The position numbers were made by a program, and so were the translations under genes. The notes under the pieces are model-generated. The model was not told where the DNA came from, searched no databases, and saw nothing but the letters and a program-made list of their open reading frames with translations. From a virus, in the IMG/VR virus record IMGVR_UViG_3300003321_000136, positions 1 through 42,384 of that record: a DNA stretch of 42,384 bases; one strand, given 5' to 3'. The first letter of the stretch is position 1; each line of letters begins with the position of its first letter. Positions 6,096 through 35,879 of this stretch are shown here, in pieces.

Positions 6096-6575
6096 TCAGC
6101 GGGCGCGCGGGCCGAGGACCTTCATCTGGTAGACGGCGTCTTCGTCGAACATGTCGTTGGGCTTGTCGCCGTCGCGATACGCCCACGGGTTCTGCGTGTA
6201 GGCGATCAGGTCAGCGATGGATTGGGGAACCTCGATGGTGATCCCTTTCCATGTGTTGAACTCCACGCCGTTGACGCGGAACTGAGCCGGGTACTTGCCG
6301 CCGTGGGTACGTGCCACGTTCTTCTCGAAATCACTCTCGAGCGGAATCATGGTCAGCACCTTGGGCTCGGCGGCCCAGTGCGCCAACACACGCGCCTGCT
6401 CGTCCTGCAACGGCTCGAGCGGCTCGGGCGGCTTCGGCGGCTGCTGTGGGCTGGCCGTTGCCACGAGCGCGGCGAATGCCTGCAGCAGCGCCTGTGGGTC
6501 GAGAGCAGGCGCCGGCTCCGGCTGCGCCTGCCCCTCGAACTCCCCAGCCTCGAGCTTGCGAACGTTGAGGGTCAC
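6096..6575 (-). CDS. Unrecognised protein following the major capsid gene
   Basis: The 159-aa product starts at the GTG at 6575, whose GTGA overlaps the capsid stop. It has an N-terminal helix, a proline-rich linker (PQQPPKPPEPLEP, about residues 44-58) and a C-terminal globular part with RVNGVEFNTWKGITIEVPQSI. A flexible linker joined to a small fold, directly downstream of the capsid gene, would suit a capsid decoration or completion protein, but no family was recognised. Confidence 0.7.
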   Translation of the reverse strand: MTLNVRKLEAGEFEGQAQPEPAPALDPQALLQAFAALVATASPQQPPKPPEPLEPLQDEQARVLAHWAAEPKVLTMIPLESDFEKNVARTHGGKYPAQFRVNGVEFNTWKGITIEVPQSIADLIAYTQNPWAYRDGDKPNDMFDEDAVYQMKVLGPRAR

Positions 6576-7531
6576 GGGGTGACCGCCGTCTCGAGCCGCT
6601 CGATGCGGTTGGAATCCAGAACCTTCGCCACAAAGGCGACCTTCCAACCCAGATACGCGCGCTGGTTGAGCGGGTCGCTCTTGCTGTCGGTGTCCAGCGG
6701 AACGACAATCACGTTGACCGCGCCCTTGTTGGTCTGCGGATTCAGCGCCTGCAGCCCCATACCGGCCAGGTCGGTGACGCCGTAAGACTGCGGACCGTAG
6801 ATCACTGCGGCGTGGACGTCGATACCAGCAGCACCAGCACCAGTGAAGATCGGCACGTCATTGGTCTTGGTCAGCAGCGCGCCGTACACCGGAACCAGCT
6901 GGTTCATCTTGAGGTCGCTGGTGCTGGTGTAGATGCTCAGGTTCTGGTAGTTCGTGTCACCCGTCAGGTCGAATGCCTGAGAGGCAGACACGACGCCGTG
7001 GTACATGCCATCGGGGAACTTCGGCGCGTTCAGCTTCTCCAGATCGCGGACGACCTTACGGATGTCGAGCACCGTCAGGTTGTCGCCAGCGGCCACGGTA
7101 ACGCGGGAGGCGCGGCCGTTGGCGTAGCGGACGCTGGAGTTGGCACCGAGCTCGGTCACCACCACACGGTGGATGGTCTGGCCAGCCTGCTCACCGAGTA
7201 CCTCGACGCCAGCGGTGACGTTGTCGTCGATGCCCGCGGTGATCAGCAGGTCGGACTCGGTCAGGAAATCGCCGTACTGCGCGATCGTCGCGGTGATCGC
7301 CGTCTGCGCCAGGGAGTTGCCCGCCGGCGTGACGCCTTCGGTCAGGGCTGTGGTCGCCAGCGAGAGTGCGCTGTAGCGGCGCCACTGGGCCACGGTGCCG
7401 TTGTTGCGCGGAATAGTGGCCTTCTGGCCATCCTGAAGGAGCGGCAGGTAGGGGAGTGCTCGCTTCAGCAGCGTCCCGATGTAGAACGTTCGCTGCTGGG
7501 TGGACAGGCCACCGTAGGTTGTCGTTGGCAA
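6572..7531 (-). CDS. Major capsid protein, N4-gp56 family
   Basis: The 319-aa length and the motifs match the N4-gp56-type HK97-fold capsid family: TTTYGGLSTQQRTFYIG at the N-terminus, then QWRRYSALSLATTALTEGVTP, ITATIAQYGDFLTESDLL, and a C-terminal DPLNQRAYLGWKVAFVAKVL strand pair. It follows the scaffold gene, as expected. The only suitable start is a TTG at 7531 preceded by GAGGT eight bases upstream, inside the end of the scaffold gene. That is an unusual initiator for what should be the most abundant virion protein. Confidence 0.9.
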   Translation of the reverse strand: MPTTTYGGLSTQQRTFYIGTLLKRALPYLPLLQDGQKATIPRNNGTVAQWRRYSALSLATTALTEGVTPAGNSLAQTAITATIAQYGDFLTESDLLITAGIDDNVTAGVEVLGEQAGQTIHRVVVTELGANSSVRYANGRASRVTVAAGDNLTVLDIRKVVRDLEKLNAPKFPDGMYHGVVSASQAFDLTGDTNYQNLSIYTSTSDLKMNQLVPVYGALLTKTNDVPIFTGAGAAGIDVHAAVIYGPQSYGVTDLAGMGLQALNPQTNKGAVNVIVVPLDTDSKSDPLNQRAYLGWKVAFVAKVLDSNRIERLETAVTP

Positions 7532-20451: not shown

Positions 20452-20552
20452 CAGGCAATTTTCCCTAGTTTGCTGGTGCGCAAAGCGTGCGATAAATTCA
20501 TCAGCGGCCTGCCGACGCATTTGTCTGCAGTAAGAATCTGCATGCCTGCCAT
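20451..20552 (-). CDS. 33-residue micro-gene between portal and fibre gene
   Basis: The frame reads MAGMQILTADKCVGRPLMNL and ends TSKLGKIA. Its ATG overlaps the portal TGA and its TGA overlaps the next ATG, both as TGATG, the same coupling used throughout this operon. The bases around the two starts are near-identical (TGATGGCAGGCA), as if the junction had been duplicated. It may encode a peptide or serve only to carry ribosomes across to the next gene. Confidence 0.45.
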   Translation of the reverse strand: MAGMQILTADKCVGRPLMNLSHALRTSKLGKIA

Positions 20553-22615
20553 CAGACTGCTGTCTCCGCCGGCTGACCTGTGGCCTGGATGACGTTGGAC
20601 TGCGCGCCGTTCATCGTCTGGCCGCCCATGATGCCGGCCACAGCTGAGGCGGCAGGATTGCCCGTACCGACCATGCCACCTGCCGGCTGACCGTTGGGCG
20701 AGGGCCGCGGCGGCATCATCACACTCGGCGTGCCGCCGGGACCGACTTGGCCTTTGTCGCGTAGCCCGGCCAACTGCTTGAGCTCCTGGTTGCCGCGTTT
20801 CCGTGCTGCCAGTTGCAGCACGTACTGCTGGCCTTCGGGACTATCGAGCTGGTGCTGCACCCAGAGCAGGTCTTCTTGTTCCTCCGGCTGCTCGAAGCCC
20901 GCCATTTCCTCCAGCCATGTCACCCGCGGGATCAGCTCGTCTTTGACGAACACACTACCTGCCTGCATGAGCGGGAGGTTGCTGAATCGCGGCGTGGGCA
21001 GCACCGCATCGATTTCGTAGCTACCCTGGAAGTCATCAGGACTAATCTCGAGCACGGACGTAACCGTGGGCTTCTGGTTGCCCTTACCGCGCGTGACCGT
21101 GGCCTCGACCGGCACCGGCTCACCGCTGTTGCGTCCGATGGCCGCGGCAATCTCGCACACGCCTTCGGCAATCGCTTCCCACGCTTGTAGCGCGCCCTCG
21201 CGGATCTGGCGCAGCATCACGTCAGCGCTGGCCGATTGCACCGCACCCTGGAAACCGCTGTCCGCGCTGCTGGTGTCGATCGTGTGGCTGGGCGTCATGC
21301 TGTTGAGCGTGCCCGTGGTCATGCTGACCAGGTCGCCCGCATCCTTGTTCGTGCCAGGATGAAACATCGGCTGCACGTCACCAGGGATGACTTGCAGCTC
21401 CATCGGTTTGATCTCGAAGCTCGCGGGATGACCAATCTCCATCCACGCGCCAAGCAGATCCTTATCGAGCTTGATCGCACTACCGCCAAACGACCAGCGG
21501 AACGAATGCGCGGCAATCGCGGTCAACGTCTGCTGTGCCCCGCGAATCAGCCCCAAGAACGGCGCCAAGAACGGGATGCCCTTGAGCGCGGCATCGGTCT
21601 CATTCGCGTGGTGAGCCCCGTAGAAGTAGCCACCGAGCAGCTCGCAGATGCCGTACTCGCTCTCGAGGTCGATCACCGCATCCTTGCCGTTGAATTGCAG
21701 GTCGTAGCGCGTGTTCTGGCCACCCTCGAGCTCGTAGACGATCTGACCGCCGATGTGGAGCTCGTACAGCGTCAGGGTCTGCCCTGCGCCACTCAGCGCC
21801 TTGCTGCGCAGTGATTGCGCCTGCGGGTTGTCGGGGACCTCGCTGCCCAGGATGGTCCACGAGAAACCGTCTTTGCGGAGGCTGACCGCAGTTCGTCGGG
21901 ACTTGACCAGCAGGGCGTCGACCTTGCCCGTTGTCGGGTCCAGACCGATCGGCAGGCACATGGCGGCCGGCAGGATACGGACGACCACTGGCACCTTCTT
22001 GGCCTTTGCCTCGCGCTGGTACTTGGCGAAGGCGTCGCTCGACTTGCTGCGGCTGACCTTGAATCGGCGCTTGCTGTCGCTGGTGTAGTAGCTATCCTCG
22101 GGCGAACGGTTCTCGGCGTCCCGCTGAAAGATCGGGTCGATGATGTCGTTGCCCTGGCCGTCCTGCTCACCCGTGGTGAAGCTGATCAGGTTGGACCACG
22201 CTTTCGGCGCCGGGCTGACGATCACCGCGAATTCACCATCATTGGTCGCGTGGGCGAGCAATGCTTCCCAAAGGTCCTCGCCGTTGGCCTTCAGCGCGTC
22301 GTCCATGCACGCCTGGACCCACTCTTCGACCTTGGACGCCAGCCGGCGCGCGGTTGGGCCTTCACCGTTCGGATCGCGTCTGGCCGTCGGCCGCTTGCGA
22401 CCCAAGAAGTTGACCACGTCCTGGCCGAGCGTGGTCGGATGTGGGAGCTCCACGCGGAAGGCATCGGGGTTTTCCCAGCCAGCGGGGATGTGCGGGTGAA
22501 CCTCGCGCCGGCGGTACTGGCCGCAGACGTCGATCTGACGCCTCGAAAACTGGAAACGCGCGTACTCCGAGTCCCACAGCGCCGCCAGCTCGCCGCGGTT
22601 CGGGCTATCGGTCAC
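20552..22615 (-). CDS. Portal protein
   Basis: The 687-aa product has the features of a large phage portal: an N-terminal wing (WDSEYARFQFSRRQIDVCGQ, then RVELPHPTTLGQDVVNFLG), a long alpha/beta core with GGYFYGAHHANETDAALKG and LIRGAQQTLTAIAAHSFRW, a helical stem (SGFQGAVQSASADVMLRQIR), and a Gly/Pro/Gln-rich C-terminal tail. It forms the dodecameric gate through which terminase pumps DNA. The start is a GTG at 22615, overlapping the 58-aa gene by 11 bases. Size and downstream genes favour the podovirus-type portal class. Confidence 0.82.
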   Translation of the reverse strand: MTDSPNRGELAALWDSEYARFQFSRRQIDVCGQYRRREVHPHIPAGWENPDAFRVELPHPTTLGQDVVNFLGRKRPTARRDPNGEGPTARRLASKVEEWVQACMDDALKANGEDLWEALLAHATNDGEFAVIVSPAPKAWSNLISFTTGEQDGQGNDIIDPIFQRDAENRSPEDSYYTSDSKRRFKVSRSKSSDAFAKYQREAKAKKVPVVVRILPAAMCLPIGLDPTTGKVDALLVKSRRTAVSLRKDGFSWTILGSEVPDNPQAQSLRSKALSGAGQTLTLYELHIGGQIVYELEGGQNTRYDLQFNGKDAVIDLESEYGICELLGGYFYGAHHANETDAALKGIPFLAPFLGLIRGAQQTLTAIAAHSFRWSFGGSAIKLDKDLLGAWMEIGHPASFEIKPMELQVIPGDVQPMFHPGTNKDAGDLVSMTTGTLNSMTPSHTIDTSSADSGFQGAVQSASADVMLRQIREGALQAWEAIAEGVCEIAAAIGRNSGEPVPVEATVTRGKGNQKPTVTSVLEISPDDFQGSYEIDAVLPTPRFSNLPLMQAGSVFVKDELIPRVTWLEEMAGFEQPEEQEDLLWVQHQLDSPEGQQYVLQLAARKRGNQELKQLAGLRDKGQVGPGGTPSVMMPPRPSPNGQPAGGMVGTGNPAASAVAGIMGGQTMNGAQSNVIQATGQPAETAV

Positions 22616-22781: not shown

Positions 22782-23023
22782 GCCGCGCGGAACTCCAACG
22801 GACCGATATCCACCAGCCTGAGCGTGCCGACCGTGACCGTCGGCGTGGGCGTCCTGGTCGGGCCGAGCGTAGGAGTCGGCGTCCGGGTAGCCGTCACGAT
22901 CGGCCGCGGTGTGGGCGTGGGTGTCGCGCGCCGGCGCAAGCGATGCGGCCGCGTGAAGCCTGCCAGCGGCAGCACCGCCACCACACCAGCGAACGATGCC
23001 AGGAGCGCTCGACGGGTCGGCAT
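22778..23023 (-). CDS. Secreted protein with Thr/Pro-repeat stalk
   Basis: The 81-aa product has a twin-arginine-like signal (MPTRRALLASFAGVVAVLPL), a basic patch, and a Thr/Pro repeat stalk (repeated TPTPT, TRTPTPT) ending in VDIGPLEFRAA. The ATG overlaps the protease TGA (ATGA). Threonine-proline repeats behind a signal peptide are common in secreted proteins of Chloroflexota and some actinobacteria, a weak hint to the host. It may be exported by the host to the envelope; its linkage to the papain-like protease suggests it could be a partner or substrate. Confidence 0.65.
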   Translation of the reverse strand: MPTRRALLASFAGVVAVLPLAGFTRPHRLRRRATPTPTPRPIVTATRTPTPTLGPTRTPTPTVTVGTLRLVDIGPLEFRAA

Positions 23024-23823
23024 CAGCGCTTCTCCGGCAGATCCCAGGCGAGATTGCCCGCGGGCTGGCTCAGGCGAAGCTGCTTGCAGTCCATCTGGCT
23101 CTTGAGAGCCTGGTACGTGCTGAGCCGCATACGGCCGCAGCCGTGATCGCCCCACGAGTCGGACCATGAGTTGTGAAAGCGAATCACGCAATAGTCGAGA
23201 CTTTTCTCCGACCACATCTCTAGCGCTTCAACGTAAACCTCGTGGCCACCAGCGATATCCGACTGCTGCCATTTGCGGTTGTCGTCGATGAACCCGCCCT
23301 TCGGCTCAAAGAACGCTTCGTACCACGGCATCCCGATCATCACGCCGCCGGTCTGCAGTAGCACCGCCATAGAGCGAGCCGTGAGCGCCCAGGCGTAGGA
23401 GTCGATCAGGCCGCTAGCCTTCAAAGCCCGACAAACACCCAAGCCGCTACTGCCCGTATCGTCCGGCGGGTACGTGCCAGGGAAACCATCGGCGACTGTT
23501 GCCTTGTGGTAAACCTGTACCGCGAACGATTCGTCCAGTGGGCCTGAGAGCGCACGATTAGGCGACGGTGGGAGCATCGCCACCCCGTACAGTGCCGACA
23601 GCGCATACGTGCCCGCATTGCCCGTACAGCTGCCCAGGTTGCCCTGGTCGAGCGTGGGAATCTTCGGCAGCCATTCCGCGGGCTTGATCGGACGCCGTGC
23701 CTTTTCAAGCGTGACGGCGTAGGTCAGGCTGCGCGCGTCGAGCTCCAGGTTGCGGCCAAGCGCCATGCCTGGCTTGCCGTTCTGCGGGATCTGGTGAAGC
23801 AACGTGCCTTTGTCGACGAGCAT
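23023..23823 (-). CDS. Papain-like (C1A) cysteine protease
   Basis: The 266-aa protein keeps all four papain landmarks: Gln60 and Cys66 in LDQGNLGSCTGNAG, His194 in GGHEVYVEAL, and Asn218 in HNSWSDSWGDHGCGRMRL. No signal peptide or pro-domain is obvious, so it should act in the cytoplasm or virion. It lies between the Acb2-like gene and portal, with one-base and four-base overlaps, so it is expressed with the head genes. It could be a maturation protease, since no standard prohead protease is seen, or an accessory enzyme acting on host proteins. The fold is confident; the role is open. Confidence 0.85.
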   Translation of the reverse strand: MLVDKGTLLHQIPQNGKPGMALGRNLELDARSLTYAVTLEKARRPIKPAEWLPKIPTLDQGNLGSCTGNAGTYALSALYGVAMLPPSPNRALSGPLDESFAVQVYHKATVADGFPGTYPPDDTGSSGLGVCRALKASGLIDSYAWALTARSMAVLLQTGGVMIGMPWYEAFFEPKGGFIDDNRKWQQSDIAGGHEVYVEALEMWSEKSLDYCVIRFHNSWSDSWGDHGCGRMRLSTYQALKSQMDCKQLRLSQPAGNLAWDLPEKR

Positions 23824-24020
23824 CAGTCAGCCAGCGCCACCGCCGCGTTTGCCCACATGCGGCATTCCTGCAGCTTCGTGATTGCGAGCGCTCGCTCTCG
23901 GCCATCGGGACAAGCGTCTAGGATGCCGTCTCGGACAGACATAAACATTGCCGTCAATGCGTCATACGTGAGTTGCTGCTCAGCGGTCGGCTTCTGGTAC
24001 TCGAATGCATCCTTTGGCAT
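23823..24020 (-). CDS. acb2: Acb2/Tad1-like cyclic-nucleotide sponge (anti-CBASS candidate)
   Basis: The 65-aa protein consists of the helical-hairpin domain found in Acb2 and Tad1: FEYQKPTAEQQLTYDAL leads to a long helix, then CPDGRERALAITKLQECRMW and ANAAVA, matching the family signature of Cys-Pro, Arg-Glu, an (A/S)LAxTxLE run and MWANAAI. Acb2 proteins form hexamers that bind cyclic di- and trinucleotides and so silence CBASS; Tad1 relatives bind the Thoeris signal. Here only the core hairpin is present. It starts directly after the terL stop and overlaps the protease gene by one base. Assignment rests on motif recall; the ligand is unknown. Confidence 0.72.
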   Translation of the reverse strand: MPKDAFEYQKPTAEQQLTYDALTAMFMSVRDGILDACPDGRERALAITKLQECRMWANAAVALAD

Positions 24021-25328
24021 CTATCGCCTCACCATCCAGTCCGCGGGGTTCGTGGTCTTCGGCGCCATACCGACGCTCTGGCGCAGGGGCATACCCGTAC
24101 GCATCATGGAGCCGATCATGGCGTTCTGCTGCTTCCTGGTCGTTGCCTGGGCTCGGTGATGCACCGCCAGAGCCAGAGCACACACACAGTCGTCATGCAG
24201 GCCCTCAGGAGCCGTATACCGAACCCCGGTGCGCGTGTACTCATACTCGAACGTCTCCAGCTCATTGACAATCGGGCCTTCGGGATAGCCGACCTGCCGC
24301 GACTGAATCGCCACGGCCAAGCCTTCCATCAGCATCTGCTTTGACGGGGCCGTGAACTTGAAGCCCTCGTAGGCTGCGCCAGAGGCTTGTAGGGCCTCGA
24401 GGATCGGGTCACCTACTCCGGTACTGTCCACGAGCGCCGGCGTGCGCTGTGTGGCGTTCTGGATGGCTCTGAGCGTGTCCTGCCATGGTCGCTGCCACCG
24501 CTCGAGCCTGCAGGTCTTGCCATGGCTGCAGAGCGCGATGCCTACGGTCCAGTCCTGGGATTTCGCCAGATCCCATCCCCACACTTCTGGCTCGCAGTTT
24601 GTGTGGAGATACTCCACGGCTGCTCGTATGGATGCCAGACCAAACGGATTGCCACCATCGTCGGACGGTTCTGCGGCGTAGAGCTCTTGGAAGACGGCCG
24701 CGGGCAGCTGGGCTCGAGCATCCTCGATTTCATCACGACTGAGGACACCAGCTTCCACAGCGTCAGACGCCGTGATCTTGAAGTACGCCATATCAGGCGC
24801 ACCAGACTCAGCACGTCGCGCCAGGTGATATGCCCAGTTGCGCCGGCCCTTGACGTTGCCAATGACCCGAATAGGTCCTCGAGTGGCAGTGAGTGTGGAC
24901 CTGACGGCATGCCAGGCTTCCTCCTTGCAGCGTGACGCTTCATCGATAACCGCGGCGTAGACGTCCTCGCCATACAAGCTGTCGGGGTTGTCGGCACCCT
25001 TGAACCAGATGGTCGTGCCGTTGGGCAGTGCGATCGTCAGCCGCGATTCGTTCGCGTGGAACATCTCGGCGGGCAGCCCGTGCTTCATGCGCCGAAATGC
25101 AATCTCGGCCTGCAGGTAGATCGGGCTGACCCACCAATACTGCTGCCCGTTACTACCCTGCATAGCTTGCTCGAGCAGCCACACGATGCACGCCACGGTC
25201 TTGCCGCTTTTCGTGCTCGCCTCGATGACGCTGTACCGCTGGTCGTTGAAGACGGCGCGCGTCTGATACTCGGCCATCCACGGCCGGGTGTAGGTCGCCG
25301 AGCTGAGCCTAGTCGCCGTCGCTGGCAT
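24021..25328 (-). CDS. terL: Terminase large subunit
   Basis: This ATPase-nuclease drives DNA packaging. The Walker A is EASTKSGKTVACIVW near the N-terminus, the Walker B is YAAVIDEASRCKEEAW, and the coupling motif is likely IGNVKGRRN. The RNase H-like nuclease has WGWDLAKSQDWTVGIAL, STGVGDPILEAL and the final HDDCVCALALA aspartates. I prefer the ATG at 25328 (435 aa; AAGG six bases upstream) over a TTG at 25361 that would add 11 residues. It overlaps the zinc-ribbon gene by about 20 bases. The length is typical for the family. Confidence 0.93.
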   Translation of the reverse strand: MPATATRLSSATYTRPWMAEYQTRAVFNDQRYSVIEASTKSGKTVACIVWLLEQAMQGSNGQQYWWVSPIYLQAEIAFRRMKHGLPAEMFHANESRLTIALPNGTTIWFKGADNPDSLYGEDVYAAVIDEASRCKEEAWHAVRSTLTATRGPIRVIGNVKGRRNWAYHLARRAESGAPDMAYFKITASDAVEAGVLSRDEIEDARAQLPAAVFQELYAAEPSDDGGNPFGLASIRAAVEYLHTNCEPEVWGWDLAKSQDWTVGIALCSHGKTCRLERWQRPWQDTLRAIQNATQRTPALVDSTGVGDPILEALQASGAAYEGFKFTAPSKQMLMEGLAVAIQSRQVGYPEGPIVNELETFEYEYTRTGVRYTAPEGLHDDCVCALALAVHHRAQATTRKQQNAMIGSMMRTGMPLRQSVGMAPKTTNPADWMVRR

Positions 25329-25512
25329 TGGCAACCTTGGCTTGCTGGTTTCGGAAGCCAACTGTCACACGGCAACGCTCAGAGCAATACTTCTGGCCCA
25401 CCCGCGAAACGATGAACCCGTGATGGCACTCCACACAGATGCCAAGGATTTGAACCGGCACCCCCTGCACTGGCACCTTCAAACGCATACCGCGCCTCAG
25501 CGAACCTGCCAT
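25309..25512 (-). CDS. Zinc-ribbon protein between the terminase subunits
   Basis: The 67-aa product has CVECHHGFIVSRVGQKYCSE followed by RCR, a CxxC...CxxxC zinc ribbon, framed by a hydrophobic beta N-terminus (LKVPVQGVPVQILG) and a polar tail. The ATG overlaps the terS TAA by one base, and its 3' end overlaps terL. Small zinc proteins sometimes sit beside terminases and HNH nucleases in phage packaging modules, but no nuclease residues are present here. Confidence 0.75.
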   Translation of the reverse strand: MAGSLRRGMRLKVPVQGVPVQILGICVECHHGFIVSRVGQKYCSERCRVTVGFRNQQAKVANASDGD

Positions 25513-25874
25513 TACTCAGACTCACCCGCCCGCTGAATCGCGAAGGTGAACAGCGGTGCGCCCGAGTCGTTGTCGTTGCTTAGCGGCTGTGTGGGCTTGC
25601 CCATGACCCGGTCCATCAGGTACTTGCCGGCTTCGCGGTCTGGTGGCCTGGTGTAGATCCGCTCCTGACCGTGGCTATCGCGCTCGCTGACCGTGACGCC
25701 CTCGACCAGCTCGAGCATTCGATCAACGATCATCGGCAGCTTGTCGCGGATCTTTGCCTCTGCCGCGGCAACCGGGCCCAGGGCCTCAGGGCCGAACTTT
25801 CGAGGGCGTCCGGCGCCAGGACGGGCACCGCCACGTCCTGAGTGAATCGGCTGGTCGGAAATCAGAGAATTCAT
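25512..25874 (-). CDS. terS: Terminase small subunit
   Basis: The 120-aa protein opens with SGRGGARPGAGRPRKFG, the basic AT-hook-like lead typical of many small terminases, followed by helices (AAAEAKIRDKLPMIVDRMLELVEG) that should oligomerise, and a DREAGKYLMDRVMGKP helix. It recognises the packaging site and loads TerL. No Shine-Dalgarno is visible: the ATG lies only nine bases beyond the T-run of the upstream terminator. Expression therefore probably depends on antitermination or on a promoter overlapping the terminator. Confidence 0.85.
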   Translation of the reverse strand: MNSLISDQPIHSGRGGARPGAGRPRKFGPEALGPVAAAEAKIRDKLPMIVDRMLELVEGVTVSERDSHGQERIYTRPPDREAGKYLMDRVMGKPTQPLSNDNDSGAPLFTFAIQRAGESE

Positions 25875-27911: not shown

Positions 27912-28022
27912 CTCTGGACACTGACACGTCCTCCCCCCCTTTAGGGGGGGACGTGTCCAGAGTTTCGCTGTCCAGAGTTTGAGATTGAGCGTGTCCAATG
28001 GACACAGTGGACTGTCCAGAGT
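27912..28022. repeat. TGTCCA iteron cluster with hairpin, candidate replication origin
   Basis: TGTCCAGAGT occurs at 27954-27963, 27969-27978 and 28013-28022, with an inverted copy of its first nine bases at 27912-27920. Two palindromes carry the same core: GTGTCCA-A-TGGACAC (27991-28005) and TGGAC-T-GTCCA (28008-28018). Between the outer copies lies a strong hairpin: GACACGT/ACGTGTC (27923-27929 with 27951-27957) capped by C7/G7 around a TTTA loop. The cluster fills the gap between primase-helicase and nuclease genes, a natural place for an iteron origin. An operator for the downstream genes is the main alternative. Confidence 0.6.
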
Positions 28023-29983
28023 CATCCGAAGATCCCAGGCGCCCCGGAGGCAGCCGAAAAACGAGCGTCGCTGGTCGACCCAGACCGCTCGACCCAGCCC
28101 AGCGCGACCAGCCGCGAAAGGGCTCGCTGGGCCGTCTTGTCCTTGATGTGGGCCAGCTCGCAGATGTCGTGTTTGCTGAGGGGTTTACCGAAGCTGTTAT
28201 TGATTACCCTCATGACGGAAGACTCGCTGTCGGTCAGTTTCGGCTTACCAGTTTTCAGGCTGAACCCTTCGCTGCCGTCGAAGTGAATGCTGATCGGTGT
28301 TTGTTCCTCACCGCGAAACTTGGGGAACGTCATGAACGCCTGGTCCCGAATCGTGCCACTCAGGTGAATCATGACGTCACTGATAGCTGACTTTGTTCTG
28401 CCGCCATAGAGCGTATCAATGGGGTCTACGGGCTGCATTGTTCCCGTCGGTTTGCGCGTGTGGTCGATGACGATATTCGACATCTTCATGGTCAGCGTCC
28501 ACTGCAGCAGTCGAGACAGGGGCTCCAGTTCCTTGCTGCTGAACTTTTCAGACGGGACCAATCGCTCACAGGCGTCAAGCCCCAGAACCAGCGGCTGCCA
28601 GGGAGCCTTGGCGACCATTGCCTGCACCTGAGCAACGCCAGCGTCATCCATCAGCCGTATGCCCTTGACGCGGTTGGTCAGGAAGGGGATGGTGTCCACG
28701 TCGATGTCGTAGATGTCGGCCAGCATCTCCACGTAGTCGGAGATGACCGAATCGGGCGAGTCCTCTTCGATCAACAGGACGGGCCCATGGACCAGCTTGC
28801 GTCCACAGAACGTGTCCTTGCTGCTGTCCGCAATGTGCATCAGCGCAGCCAGCCAGAACAGCGTCTTGCCCGCCCCAGGGCCCGAGTAGACCCAATGGGT
28901 ACGCATCTCCCACAACATGCCCTCGGCCAGCTGGCGGCCGTGATCGGGCGCCGCCCGCACGACTTCGCCCAGCGTCCGCCATGGCGATTCTTCGACGACC
29001 TCCCCCGTCGCCGGATCAACGGTGTATGACGGCGCGGCTACGCTGCCGCCCGGAATGACCAGGTGCAAGCCTGCGCCGGGCCCGCTGTAAAACTCTGTCT
29101 TGCCCTCGAGCGCTTTGCCGATGGTGGAGTCGCGGTAATCAGCCCGCTCCCACTTGTCGCGCATCAGCCCGCTCGAGCGGAACAGGCTGTCCAGCCTCGC
29201 GGGGTCTGGCCCGGTCCAGAACGACAGGTGGTTGACCAGCGCGAGGTCGGCCTCCGACTGGCTGTGGTATTGCCCGCTCCAGTCTCCATTCCAGAGCGCC
29301 CAGAATGCCGTGCCGTTGGCCGCGTTGCGCGCTCGCTCGATCAGCTCGCTATCGCTCAGGGCCAGCGGAGAGCGCTGTACGAGGGCCGTCGGCCGCTGCT
29401 GGACGACCGGGCCAAAGACTTCCTCGTGCCACACGCTGAGCTCGTCTGAGCGGTCGTAGATGGCGTCTGGCGTGCCGGGCAGCCGATTGCCCGTGATCGT
29501 CAGAAACCGCGCCTGGCTGTAGATCTCGAGCGGCCCTTTGCGGCGCCCGTGTGGCGGCAGGGTTCCGCGAATGAAGATCCGTAGCCCGGTCTGCGACGGG
29601 CTGATTTCGGTGTAGCTGTTGAGCCGATCGACGATCTGCCTGGCCCACGTCTGGATTGCGCCGGAGTCCCGGTCGCGGCACTTGTCCAGGTCGACGCCGA
29701 CATACGGATCGTCCGGCGACAGGACGTAGCCGATGCCGTCGAGCTGCGCTGAGCCGTGATACGTGCTCAGCGCTTCGCTGTAGCTCGCCCAGGTGTGCGG
29801 GTCAGTCGAGGATGCCCGTTGCCCCGTACGCGGGTTGTACGGCACTTTGGTTGGCTTCTGAGTGCCGTCCCGGTCGGCGCGCAGCTCGAGCCGCCACACG
29901 ACCCATTGGGGTCGTGCGGCGAGCTCCGACGGGGCGCTCGGCCCCGTCGGCTGACTGAACCAATTACCAGGGGAGGCTGACAC
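28022..29983 (-). CDS. Primase-polymerase fused to RecA-like replicative helicase
   Basis: The 653-aa protein begins with an AEP-type prim-pol domain (about 20-185; PYVGVDLDKCRD with Asp98 and Asp100, EIYSQARFLTITGNRL). It continues with a helix-bundle domain resembling that of the NrS-1 phage polymerase (about 215-290; NGDWSGQYHSQSEADLAL, FRSSGLMRDKW). A RecA/AAA-25 helicase follows, with Walker A GPGAGKT (368-374) and Walker B LVLGLDACE, then a winged-helix-like end (KPLSKHDICELAHIKDKTAQ). It should unwind the origin and synthesise primers, possibly longer strands. The GTG start overlaps the upstream gene by 20 bases. Confidence 0.87.
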   Translation of the reverse strand: MSASPGNWFSQPTGPSAPSELAARPQWVVWRLELRADRDGTQKPTKVPYNPRTGQRASSTDPHTWASYSEALSTYHGSAQLDGIGYVLSPDDPYVGVDLDKCRDRDSGAIQTWARQIVDRLNSYTEISPSQTGLRIFIRGTLPPHGRRKGPLEIYSQARFLTITGNRLPGTPDAIYDRSDELSVWHEEVFGPVVQQRPTALVQRSPLALSDSELIERARNAANGTAFWALWNGDWSGQYHSQSEADLALVNHLSFWTGPDPARLDSLFRSSGLMRDKWERADYRDSTIGKALEGKTEFYSGPGAGLHLVIPGGSVAAPSYTVDPATGEVVEESPWRTLGEVVRAAPDHGRQLAEGMLWEMRTHWVYSGPGAGKTLFWLAALMHIADSSKDTFCGRKLVHGPVLLIEEDSPDSVISDYVEMLADIYDIDVDTIPFLTNRVKGIRLMDDAGVAQVQAMVAKAPWQPLVLGLDACERLVPSEKFSSKELEPLSRLLQWTLTMKMSNIVIDHTRKPTGTMQPVDPIDTLYGGRTKSAISDVMIHLSGTIRDQAFMTFPKFRGEEQTPISIHFDGSEGFSLKTGKPKLTDSESSVMRVINNSFGKPLSKHDICELAHIKDKTAQRALSRLVALGWVERSGSTSDARFSAASGAPGIFG

Positions 29984-34053: not shown

Positions 34054-34141
34054 GCATACCAGCATAGTACTGGCCTGCACGAACTGTCAACGGTTTTGTC
34101 ACAACGACTTTGCAACGGTGCAAGAATTGACTTGCATGCAT
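34046..34141. promoter_or_regulatory. Operator region of the lysis-lysogeny switch
   Basis: ACTTGCATGCAT is present as a direct repeat at 34046-34057 and 34130-34141, one covering the Arc-gene start, the other the spacer of the repressor promoter. Between them are the inverted repeats TTGCA-ACGG-TGCAA (34110-34123) and TTGT-C-ACAA (34096-34104). These are the likely binding sites of the XRE and Arc-like proteins. Confidence 0.65.
34061..34090 (-). promoter_or_regulatory. Early promoter (PR-like)
   Basis: On the minus strand a perfect -35 TTGACA (34085-34090) is followed, after 18 bases, by TATGCT (34061-34066). The predicted start of transcription falls at or within a base or two of the ATG at 34053. 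It should drive the whole early operon. Confidence 0.78.
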
Positions 34142-34155
34142 GCTTGCGCTAGATT
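34127..34155 (+). promoter_or_regulatory. Repressor promoter
   Basis: TTGACT (34127-34132) and TAGATT (34150-34155) are 17 bases apart, and the ATG of the XRE gene follows nine bases later, predicting a leaderless or nearly leaderless mRNA as for lambda cI from PRM. The spacer contains one of the TTGCATGCAT operator copies. Confidence 0.78.
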
Positions 34156-34164
34156 CATGCACGC

Positions 34165-34791
34165 ATGGACGACGCGGCAGCTCAATTCAGGGAGTTCCTG
34201 AAAGCCTGGCTGGAATCGAATGGCTGGACGAAGTACCGACTCGCGACCGAGTCGGATATTGACGAGAGCATCATCAGCAGATGGCTCTCGGATGACCCCC
34301 GCCGACGGACACAGCCATCAGATGCCAAGCTTCGGGCACTGAGCGCCGTGATCCAGGTCCCTGCCGCCGATCTCATGCGCATGGCCGGACGGCTGCCCGG
34401 CCCCGTGAGCGAAGACGTGGCGCGAGCCAAGCCGTCAGTCCTGGTTCAGCAGCGGACGCTCAGCGATAACTACGATCGCTGGATGGCGGTCATGGGGCCG
34501 CGGATGGGCGAGCAGAAAGCCCACGACCACTACTGGCAGATGTTAGTCAGCAACAGCGCGAACATGGTTAGCGCGGTCGAGTCCATTCTGCAGGGTGACA
34601 CGCCGCCCAGCGGATCAACCGCAGTTAGCGGCCAGGCAGACACCGCCGTTAGCGACGTGGTTAGTGACCAACCGCGGCGCGCTAACCGACGACCCGGAAA
34701 GGGCAGGGACCAGTTTACGGGTCGTTATCACCGGCTCGAAGTGTTGGAGAGCTTCGCGCTCGGCCTAGCTAATCCGCCTCTCGCCGCCTAA
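34165..34791 (+). CDS. XRE-family phage repressor
   Basis: The 208-aa protein has an N-terminal lambda-repressor-type HTH (about 8-75; KYRLATESDIDESIISRWLS, then LRALSAVIQVPAADLMRMAG), a middle region with helices (SDNYDRWMAVMGPRMGEQKA, then HDHYWQMLVSNSANMV) and a basic C-terminus (RRANRRPGKGRDQFTGRYHR). No LexA-like Ser/Lys autoprotease motif is visible, so induction may not go through RecA cleavage. It diverges from the Arc-like gene, is preceded by a good promoter without leader, and is followed by the integrase on the same strand. It is the likely immunity repressor. Confidence 0.8.
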   Translation: MDDAAAQFREFLKAWLESNGWTKYRLATESDIDESIISRWLSDDPRRRTQPSDAKLRALSAVIQVPAADLMRMAGRLPGPVSEDVARAKPSVLVQQRTLSDNYDRWMAVMGPRMGEQKAHDHYWQMLVSNSANMVSAVESILQGDTPPSGSTAVSGQADTAVSDVVSDQPRRANRRPGKGRDQFTGRYHRLEVLESFALGLANPPLAA

Positions 34792-34830: not shown

Positions 34831-34852
34831 CAGATGAAGCGCAGATGAAGCG
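34831..34852 (+). repeat. Tandem 11-bp duplication at the integrase start
   Basis: CAGATGAAGCG occurs twice head to tail (34831-34841, 34842-34852). The first ATG opens a four-codon frame whose TGA overlaps the second ATG, the integrase start, making a mini-upstream ORF that could couple or dampen integrase translation. Confidence 0.6.
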
Positions 34853-35879
34853 CCGTAATACATCTGTAACCGACATTTCCCCCAGCGAGGGGGCTAGCAC
34901 TTCACCGCCCCCCTCTAAGGTACCGGGCATCCCGTGGAAGGGGGGAATGCCTTTGAACCTGCTCGAAGGCTTTGAGTACCACTTGCGGACTCTGGAGCGC
35001 CTGGGGCGCAGCCCTGAAACGCTCAGGCTGTACCGCATCTATGAGCGTCAGTTTCTGGTTTTCCTGGATGAAGGGGGCATTGCGCCGAGCTTCGACGCGC
35101 TCACGCCCCAGCTGGTCCTGGAGGCTCAAGGCTGGCTGCGGTCGAAGTCCGTCGGCCATCGGGCCGGCGCCACGGCTGAGCGCATGTTTGTCCTGGTCCT
35201 GCGGACGTTCGACCGCTGGGCTGTGGATAACGACCTGTACCCGGTGCCTCGGCTGGCTCGGCTCAGGAAACCGACGGTGCCGAAGATCAAGCGCAAGCCG
35301 TTCACTGAGGCTGAGGTCAAGCGGCTGTTACAGGCGGCCCTTGAGGGGTCGAACCCGCTGCGCGATCGGGCACTGCTTTTGCTCATGCTCGACACCGGCT
35401 GCCGCATTGGCGAACTGTGCAACGCGACCGTCGATGACGTCGACCTGGTGAAAGGGTCGATCCTGTTCAGGCACACGAAAGGGCGCCGACCGCGAGAAGT
35501 CATATTTCGAGTAGCCGAGCGGCGGGATGGCGGACCGTCGCTGCAGGCACTACGCCAGTGGCTCCGGGTGCGTAACGCCGGGCCAAACGTGAACGCATTG
35601 TTCACAACCAGAGAGCAGCGGGCGCTGAGCCCGCGGAGGGCGCATGAAATATTCGCTCAGTTGGGCAAAGCGGCGAGGGTGCCGAATTGCCATCCACACC
35701 GGACCCGTCATACGGCGGCAACCGAATTCCTGGCGGCGCGACCGGGGGCCGAAATCCAACTCCGGTCACGGCTTGGCCACGTCAGTGACGACGTGCTGCA
35801 GGATTACGTGACGATCAGTGATCCCACTGCTGAGTCGGCGGCCAGCATCGCGTCCGTATCGAGCAAATGGCGCCTGTGA
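34845..35879 (+). CDS. int: Tyrosine integrase
   Basis: The 344-aa tyrosine recombinase has a SAM-like core-binding domain (about 38-135; LLEGFEYHLRTLERLGRSPE) and a catalytic domain with all six residues: Arg187 in TGCRIGEL, Lys212 in RHTKGRR, His285 and Arg288 in HPHRTRHTAATEF, His312 in LGHVS and Tyr321 in DYVTIS. It should insert the phage into the host chromosome. The N-terminal 35 residues look disordered, and an in-frame ATG at 34947 behind a GGGGGG run is an alternative start. No excisionase was recognised, although a small early gene might fill that role. Confidence 0.93.
   Translation: MKRRNTSVTDISPSEGASTSPPPSKVPGIPWKGGMPLNLLEGFEYHLRTLERLGRSPETLRLYRIYERQFLVFLDEGGIAPSFDALTPQLVLEAQGWLRSKSVGHRAGATAERMFVLVLRTFDRWAVDNDLYPVPRLARLRKPTVPKIKRKPFTEAEVKRLLQAALEGSNPLRDRALLLLMLDTGCRIGELCNATVDDVDLVKGSILFRHTKGRRPREVIFRVAERRDGGPSLQALRQWLRVRNAGPNVNALFTTREQRALSPRRAHEIFAQLGKAARVPNCHPHRTRHTAATEFLAARPGAEIQLRSRLGHVSDDVLQDYVTISDPTAESAASIASVSSKWRL

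Follow-up and report, generated by a model that had tools for sequence, protein, structure and literature searches.

A putative Acb2/Tad1-type hairpin sponge encoded beside the packaging genes of an uncultured temperate phage

Proteins of the Acb2/Tad1 family soak up the nucleotide alarm signals that are used by bacteria to stop infection. T4 Acb2 (Vs.4, PDB 7UQ2) is composed of 88 aa, and its gene lies among the tk/vs/regB genes. The residue F82 of T4 Acb2 stacks on the bound dinucleotide (PMC12657218), the Y8-to-Ala mutant is binding-deficient, and the affinity is lowered by T68M (PMC12657230). In Tad1 (PDB 7UAV, 8KBB), an N-terminal antiparallel β-sheet is followed by two helices. Acb2 homolog 43 (PDB 9PTQ) is a stand-alone hairpin protein of 76 aa. 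Minimal hairpins are also encoded by actinophages: StellaBean gp101 is annotated as 'cyclic nucleotide sequestering protein', Gordonia phage Gray gp24 matches PF24729 in Pfam, and Statler gp57 has been named 'Acb2' (PMC13348362).

The window analysed here is the whole 42,384-base IMG/VR virus record IMGVR_UViG_3300003321_000136. According to PF24729, phrog_1454, AlphaFold2 (AF2) and Foldseek, an Acb2/Tad1 hairpin-domain protein of 65 aa, a putative cyclic-nucleotide sponge, is encoded at 23823..24020 on the minus strand. It shares with T4 Acb2 the helical hairpin, the TKL-x-E-x-x-MWA core and the equivalents of Tyr8 and Thr68. However, the insertion of roughly 20 residues that separates the long helices of T4 Acb2 is absent, F82 corresponds to Ala62, and the gene lies among packaging genes. 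The C-terminal hairpin motif of Tad1 (RE-x-A-x-AITKLQEC-x-MW) is shared, whereas the N-terminal β domain is not. Acb2 homolog 43 aligns across nearly the whole hairpin, with lower identity in the RERALAITK core. The actinophage hairpins resemble the window protein in size and sequence motif, but their context differs; the StellaBean gene is among replication genes, and the Gray gene is directly after the portal gene. When Pseudomonas phage PaP2, which carries the founding member Acb2, was searched with a custom profile, its Acb2 was not picked out.

Gene structure and family membership

The sponge ORF reads from 24020 to 23823 with an ATG start, and the protein is MPKDAFEYQKPTAEQQLTYDALTAMFMSVRDGILDACPDGRERALAITKLQECRMWANAAVALAD. 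The signature residues listed in the first-pass annotation are present in this ORF, and the tight junctions described there were confirmed on both sides. The stop codon TAG of the terminase large subunit gene (terL) abuts the sponge ATG with a 0-nt gap, and a Shine-Dalgarno-like GGTGAGG is located within the end of terL just upstream of this ATG. The sponge–terL junction thus has the geometry of translational coupling. At the other end, the sponge TGA and the ATG of the next ORF have one base in common (TGATG). The codon-position base composition of the sponge ORF is similar to that of its neighbours.

In the HMM search against Pfam, PF24729 (Acb2/Tad1 hairpin) was matched with 52.6 bits against the gathering cut-off of 27 (E = 5e-14). 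The match spans profile positions 2–57 of 58, and no second PF24729 match occurs in the 42,384-base record. In PHROGs, the protein matched phrog_1454 (E = 1e-15), whose function is given there as unknown; no match to it was found in NCBIfam and PADLOC. A profile of six relatives searched against the PDB detected Tad1 (E = 4e-7), Acb2 homolog 43 (E = 6e-6) and T4 Vs.4 (E = 0.03). The assignment to the Acb2/Tad1 family made in the first pass is upheld by the Pfam score well over the cut-off, these PDB profile matches and the predicted fold.

As the length is merely 65 aa, a spurious ORF or a chance likeness to the family may be considered. However, the protein scored 57.6 bits against a profile of the relatives built without it. 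With the same profile, the best of 20,000 shuffles of its residues scored 16.7 bits, and the runner-up among the 926 ORF segments in the window 6.1 bits. The Pfam score is about twice the cut-off, and the junctions with both flanking genes are near-contiguous. A chance origin is therefore extremely improbable, and it was ruled out by the profile score against the shuffles. Judged from its sequence, the 65-aa protein is a minimal, diverged stand-alone member of the known Acb2/Tad1 hairpin family. The protein as such is ordinary, and the first-pass annotation was right to pick it out.

Several other members of the family were also observed. In Sulfitobacter phage phiCB2047-B (L060, 5539-6105), a RyR domain is followed by an Acb2/Tad1 hairpin domain in one protein, and this fusion may hint at another nucleotide ligand. 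The relatives L004, L006, L016-L018 and L021-L023 form a hairpin subfamily of their own, in which the hairpin is followed by a conserved C-terminal tail (approximately NPYPxSYDPxxPVVxPTADxLKL). In the Paenibacillus/Brevibacillus phage records (e.g. MG727702, KT361652, MH460826 and NC_028805), members of about 65-70 aa are labelled 'phosphomannomutase', which is apparently a mis-annotation.

Predicted fold and binding-site residues

The monomer was predicted by AF2 using an alignment of 17 sequences. The model (pLDDT 93.3) contains the helices 3-6, 13-36 and 41-63 and no strands; a short N-terminal helix is followed by a hairpin of two long antiparallel helices. The same helix arrangement is described for the Acb2 protomer (PMC12043709). 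The Acb2-like helical hairpin anticipated in the first pass was thus obtained for the monomer. Tad1 proper was rejected, as the 65-aa protein is all helical in the AF2 model and has no β domain.

According to Foldseek, three chains of T4 Vs.4 with cGAMP, together with Tad1 and Pseudomonas Acb2, were the five best matches in the PDB, with E-values of at least 0.15; 7uq2, 7uav, 8h2x and 8h2j are among the entries matched. These values are weak because the 65-aa hairpin is tiny, and the matches are no independent proof of kinship. Among the predicted viral proteins of BFVD, the majority of the best matches bear the Acb2/Tad1 hairpin name.

Two of the three published binding-site positions of T4 Acb2 are kept: Y8 corresponds to Y8 of the window protein, and T68 corresponds to T48, which is invariant. 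The third position, F82 in T4 Acb2, is also Ala in most small hairpin relatives, as it is at Ala62 here.

Neighbouring genes and siting in other phages

The terL gene (24021..25361, minus strand; 446 aa) is located directly upstream of the sponge gene. Its product matches Terminase_3, Terminase_6N and Terminase_6C over the cut-offs, and phrog_2 with E = 1e-29. The probable terminase small subunit (25512..25874, minus strand) is assigned from its position and a GGARPGAGRP stretch; it gave no significant Pfam or PHROG match. On the downstream side, the gene with the one-base overlap encodes a papain-like cysteine peptidase of 266 aa (23023..23823, minus strand), which matches phrog_16701 (E = 7e-35) and, below the threshold, Peptidase_C1 (E = 0.01). 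A 687-aa ORF (20552..22615, minus strand) is a candidate portal from its size and its position, which is the usual one for a portal gene. No relative of this ORF turned up in Pfam, in PHROGs, in the phage tblastn search or in the viral contigs, and no credible one in the PDB; the AF2 model from the single sequence was uninformative (pLDDT 33). The first pass had placed the sponge between terL and the portal gene. The terL side of this placement is correct, but the next gene encodes the peptidase, and no profile identifies a portal.

The peptidase looks intact, with Cys66, His194 and Asn218 in papain-like motifs. The relatives listed share about 31-41% identity with it and have a scattered distribution among phages of Streptomyces, Gordonia, Mycobacterium and Arthrobacter, and the actinophage homologues are annotated as cysteine protease; no relative of the peptidase was found in the viral contigs searched. 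In Streptomyces phage Ibantik, an annotated peptidase is beside the sponge gene, but it shows merely a sub-threshold Peptidase_C92 match. In ZL12 and Shaeky, the two best-listed relatives, no annotated sponge adjoins the peptidase. A functional link between the sponge and the peptidase was considered, and no link is claimed.

The major head protein (6572..7531, minus strand; phrog_1357, E = 5e-50) belongs to the structural module, which is on the same strand as the sponge gene. Replication genes are located at 27-31.5 kb of the window. A repressor-like HTH protein (34165-34791) and a tyrosine integrase (34845-35879) are encoded on the plus strand. These two genes indicate a temperate phage with its lytic genes leftward. 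A primase-like protein (28022-29983, minus strand) combines an NrS-1 polymerase-type HBD domain, an AAA domain and a C-terminal MarR-like winged helix. In a promoter scan of 20.4-34.3 kb, only two promoter-like sites were obtained (34061-34155), no more than expected by chance, and both are close to the repressor divergence. Thus, the scan says nothing on a late promoter.

The siting of the family was surveyed in nineteen annotated phage records, chosen mostly by similarity to the window protein; ten of these genes were checked with Pfam, and all ten passed PF24729. In the Gordonia phages Gray and ChisanaKitsune, the sponge gene begins on the last base of the portal gene. Arthrobacter phage Jasmine, the Mycobacterium phages Eponine, Ximenita and Bernal13, and Streptomyces phage Ibantik carry the gene upstream of terL or terS, at a distance of at most about 2.5 kb. 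Replication or other non-structural genes surround it in Pharaoh, Jenst, StellaBean, Daredevil, Ash and others. The gene of the closest relative (L001/L002/L030, 45% identity) is located between head genes and neck/tail genes.

A podovirus-like metagenomic contig (L035, 6415-10025) encodes terL, a sponge with a four-base overlap, a 63-aa ORF and a head-tail connector, and the major head protein is farther along, past the connector. The sponges of this contig and the window match with E = 8e-10, whereas the two terLs show no similarity beyond chance by BLASTP (E = 0.18). Therefore, the two terL–sponge pairs look independent. In three contigs with terLs 56-59% identical to that of the window, an ORF of about 440 aa (portal-like by reading) directly follows terL without a sponge between them. 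Thus, the sponge is no constant component of the module of the window terL. In this small, similarity-biased survey, siting near packaging genes is recurrent and not unique. The first-pass remark that expression with late genes would be unusual for such a protein was not borne out, as PF24729 genes are located inside the packaging/structural module, or at its edge, in several unrelated phages.

Proposed function

The protein is likely, in our view, to be a minimal sponge of the Acb2 type, which would sequester cyclic nucleotides of the CBASS type. The Pfam score, the PDB profile matches, the structural matches of the predicted fold and the retained Y8 and T48 speak for this reading. It would assemble into an Acb2-like oligomer (hexamer), and the oligomer would bind cyclic di- and/or trinucleotides from CBASS or a related signalling defence of the host. 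The bound nucleotides would be kept from the effectors, and the infected or induced cell would live long enough to make phage. The sponge gene is probably cotranscribed with the packaging genes, so the sponge would be expressed late and reach its peak when virion proteins accumulate. A late-made sponge could still work if virion proteins or replication trigger the defence. The replacement of the ligand-stacking F82 of T4 by Ala62 argues against this reading.

The same replacement could instead point to uptake of another signal (for example, an ADP-ribose derivative of Thoeris or a cyclic oligoadenylate of the type III CRISPR kind), and the core GRERALAITKLQECRMW is closer to that of Tad1 (RENAMAITKLQECLMW) than to that of T4 Acb2. 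However, the window protein lacks the N-terminal β domain of Tad1 (described in PMC12043709), and its short N-terminal helix, with the aromatic Y8, is of the Acb2 type. Another signal is plausible but unlikely. Far less probable is a hairpin that has lost nucleotide binding and turned into an accessory of packaging or virion assembly. This would explain the place beside terL, and the tight coupling to terL and the same siting in the unrelated podovirus-like contig are in its favour. However, Y8 and T48, which are associated with binding, are retained, and many sponge relatives are located among replication genes. The related terLs with no sponge after them also show that the packaging genes do not invariably include the sponge. 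Sequestration of CBASS-type nucleotides is the reading that we prefer.

A broader proposal is that sponges are repeatedly and independently put in packaging/structural operons: the defence would be triggered by late virion proteins, and coexpression with terL or portal would time the sponge. We regard this proposal as rather doubtful.

The present protein adds a minimal, diverged stand-alone hairpin, probably a sponge, from an uncultured temperate phage. In several unrelated phages, PF24729 genes are found within or next to the packaging genes, and two phages with dissimilar terminases have them directly after terL. With this recurrent siting, the timing of anti-signalling proteins is now a testable question.
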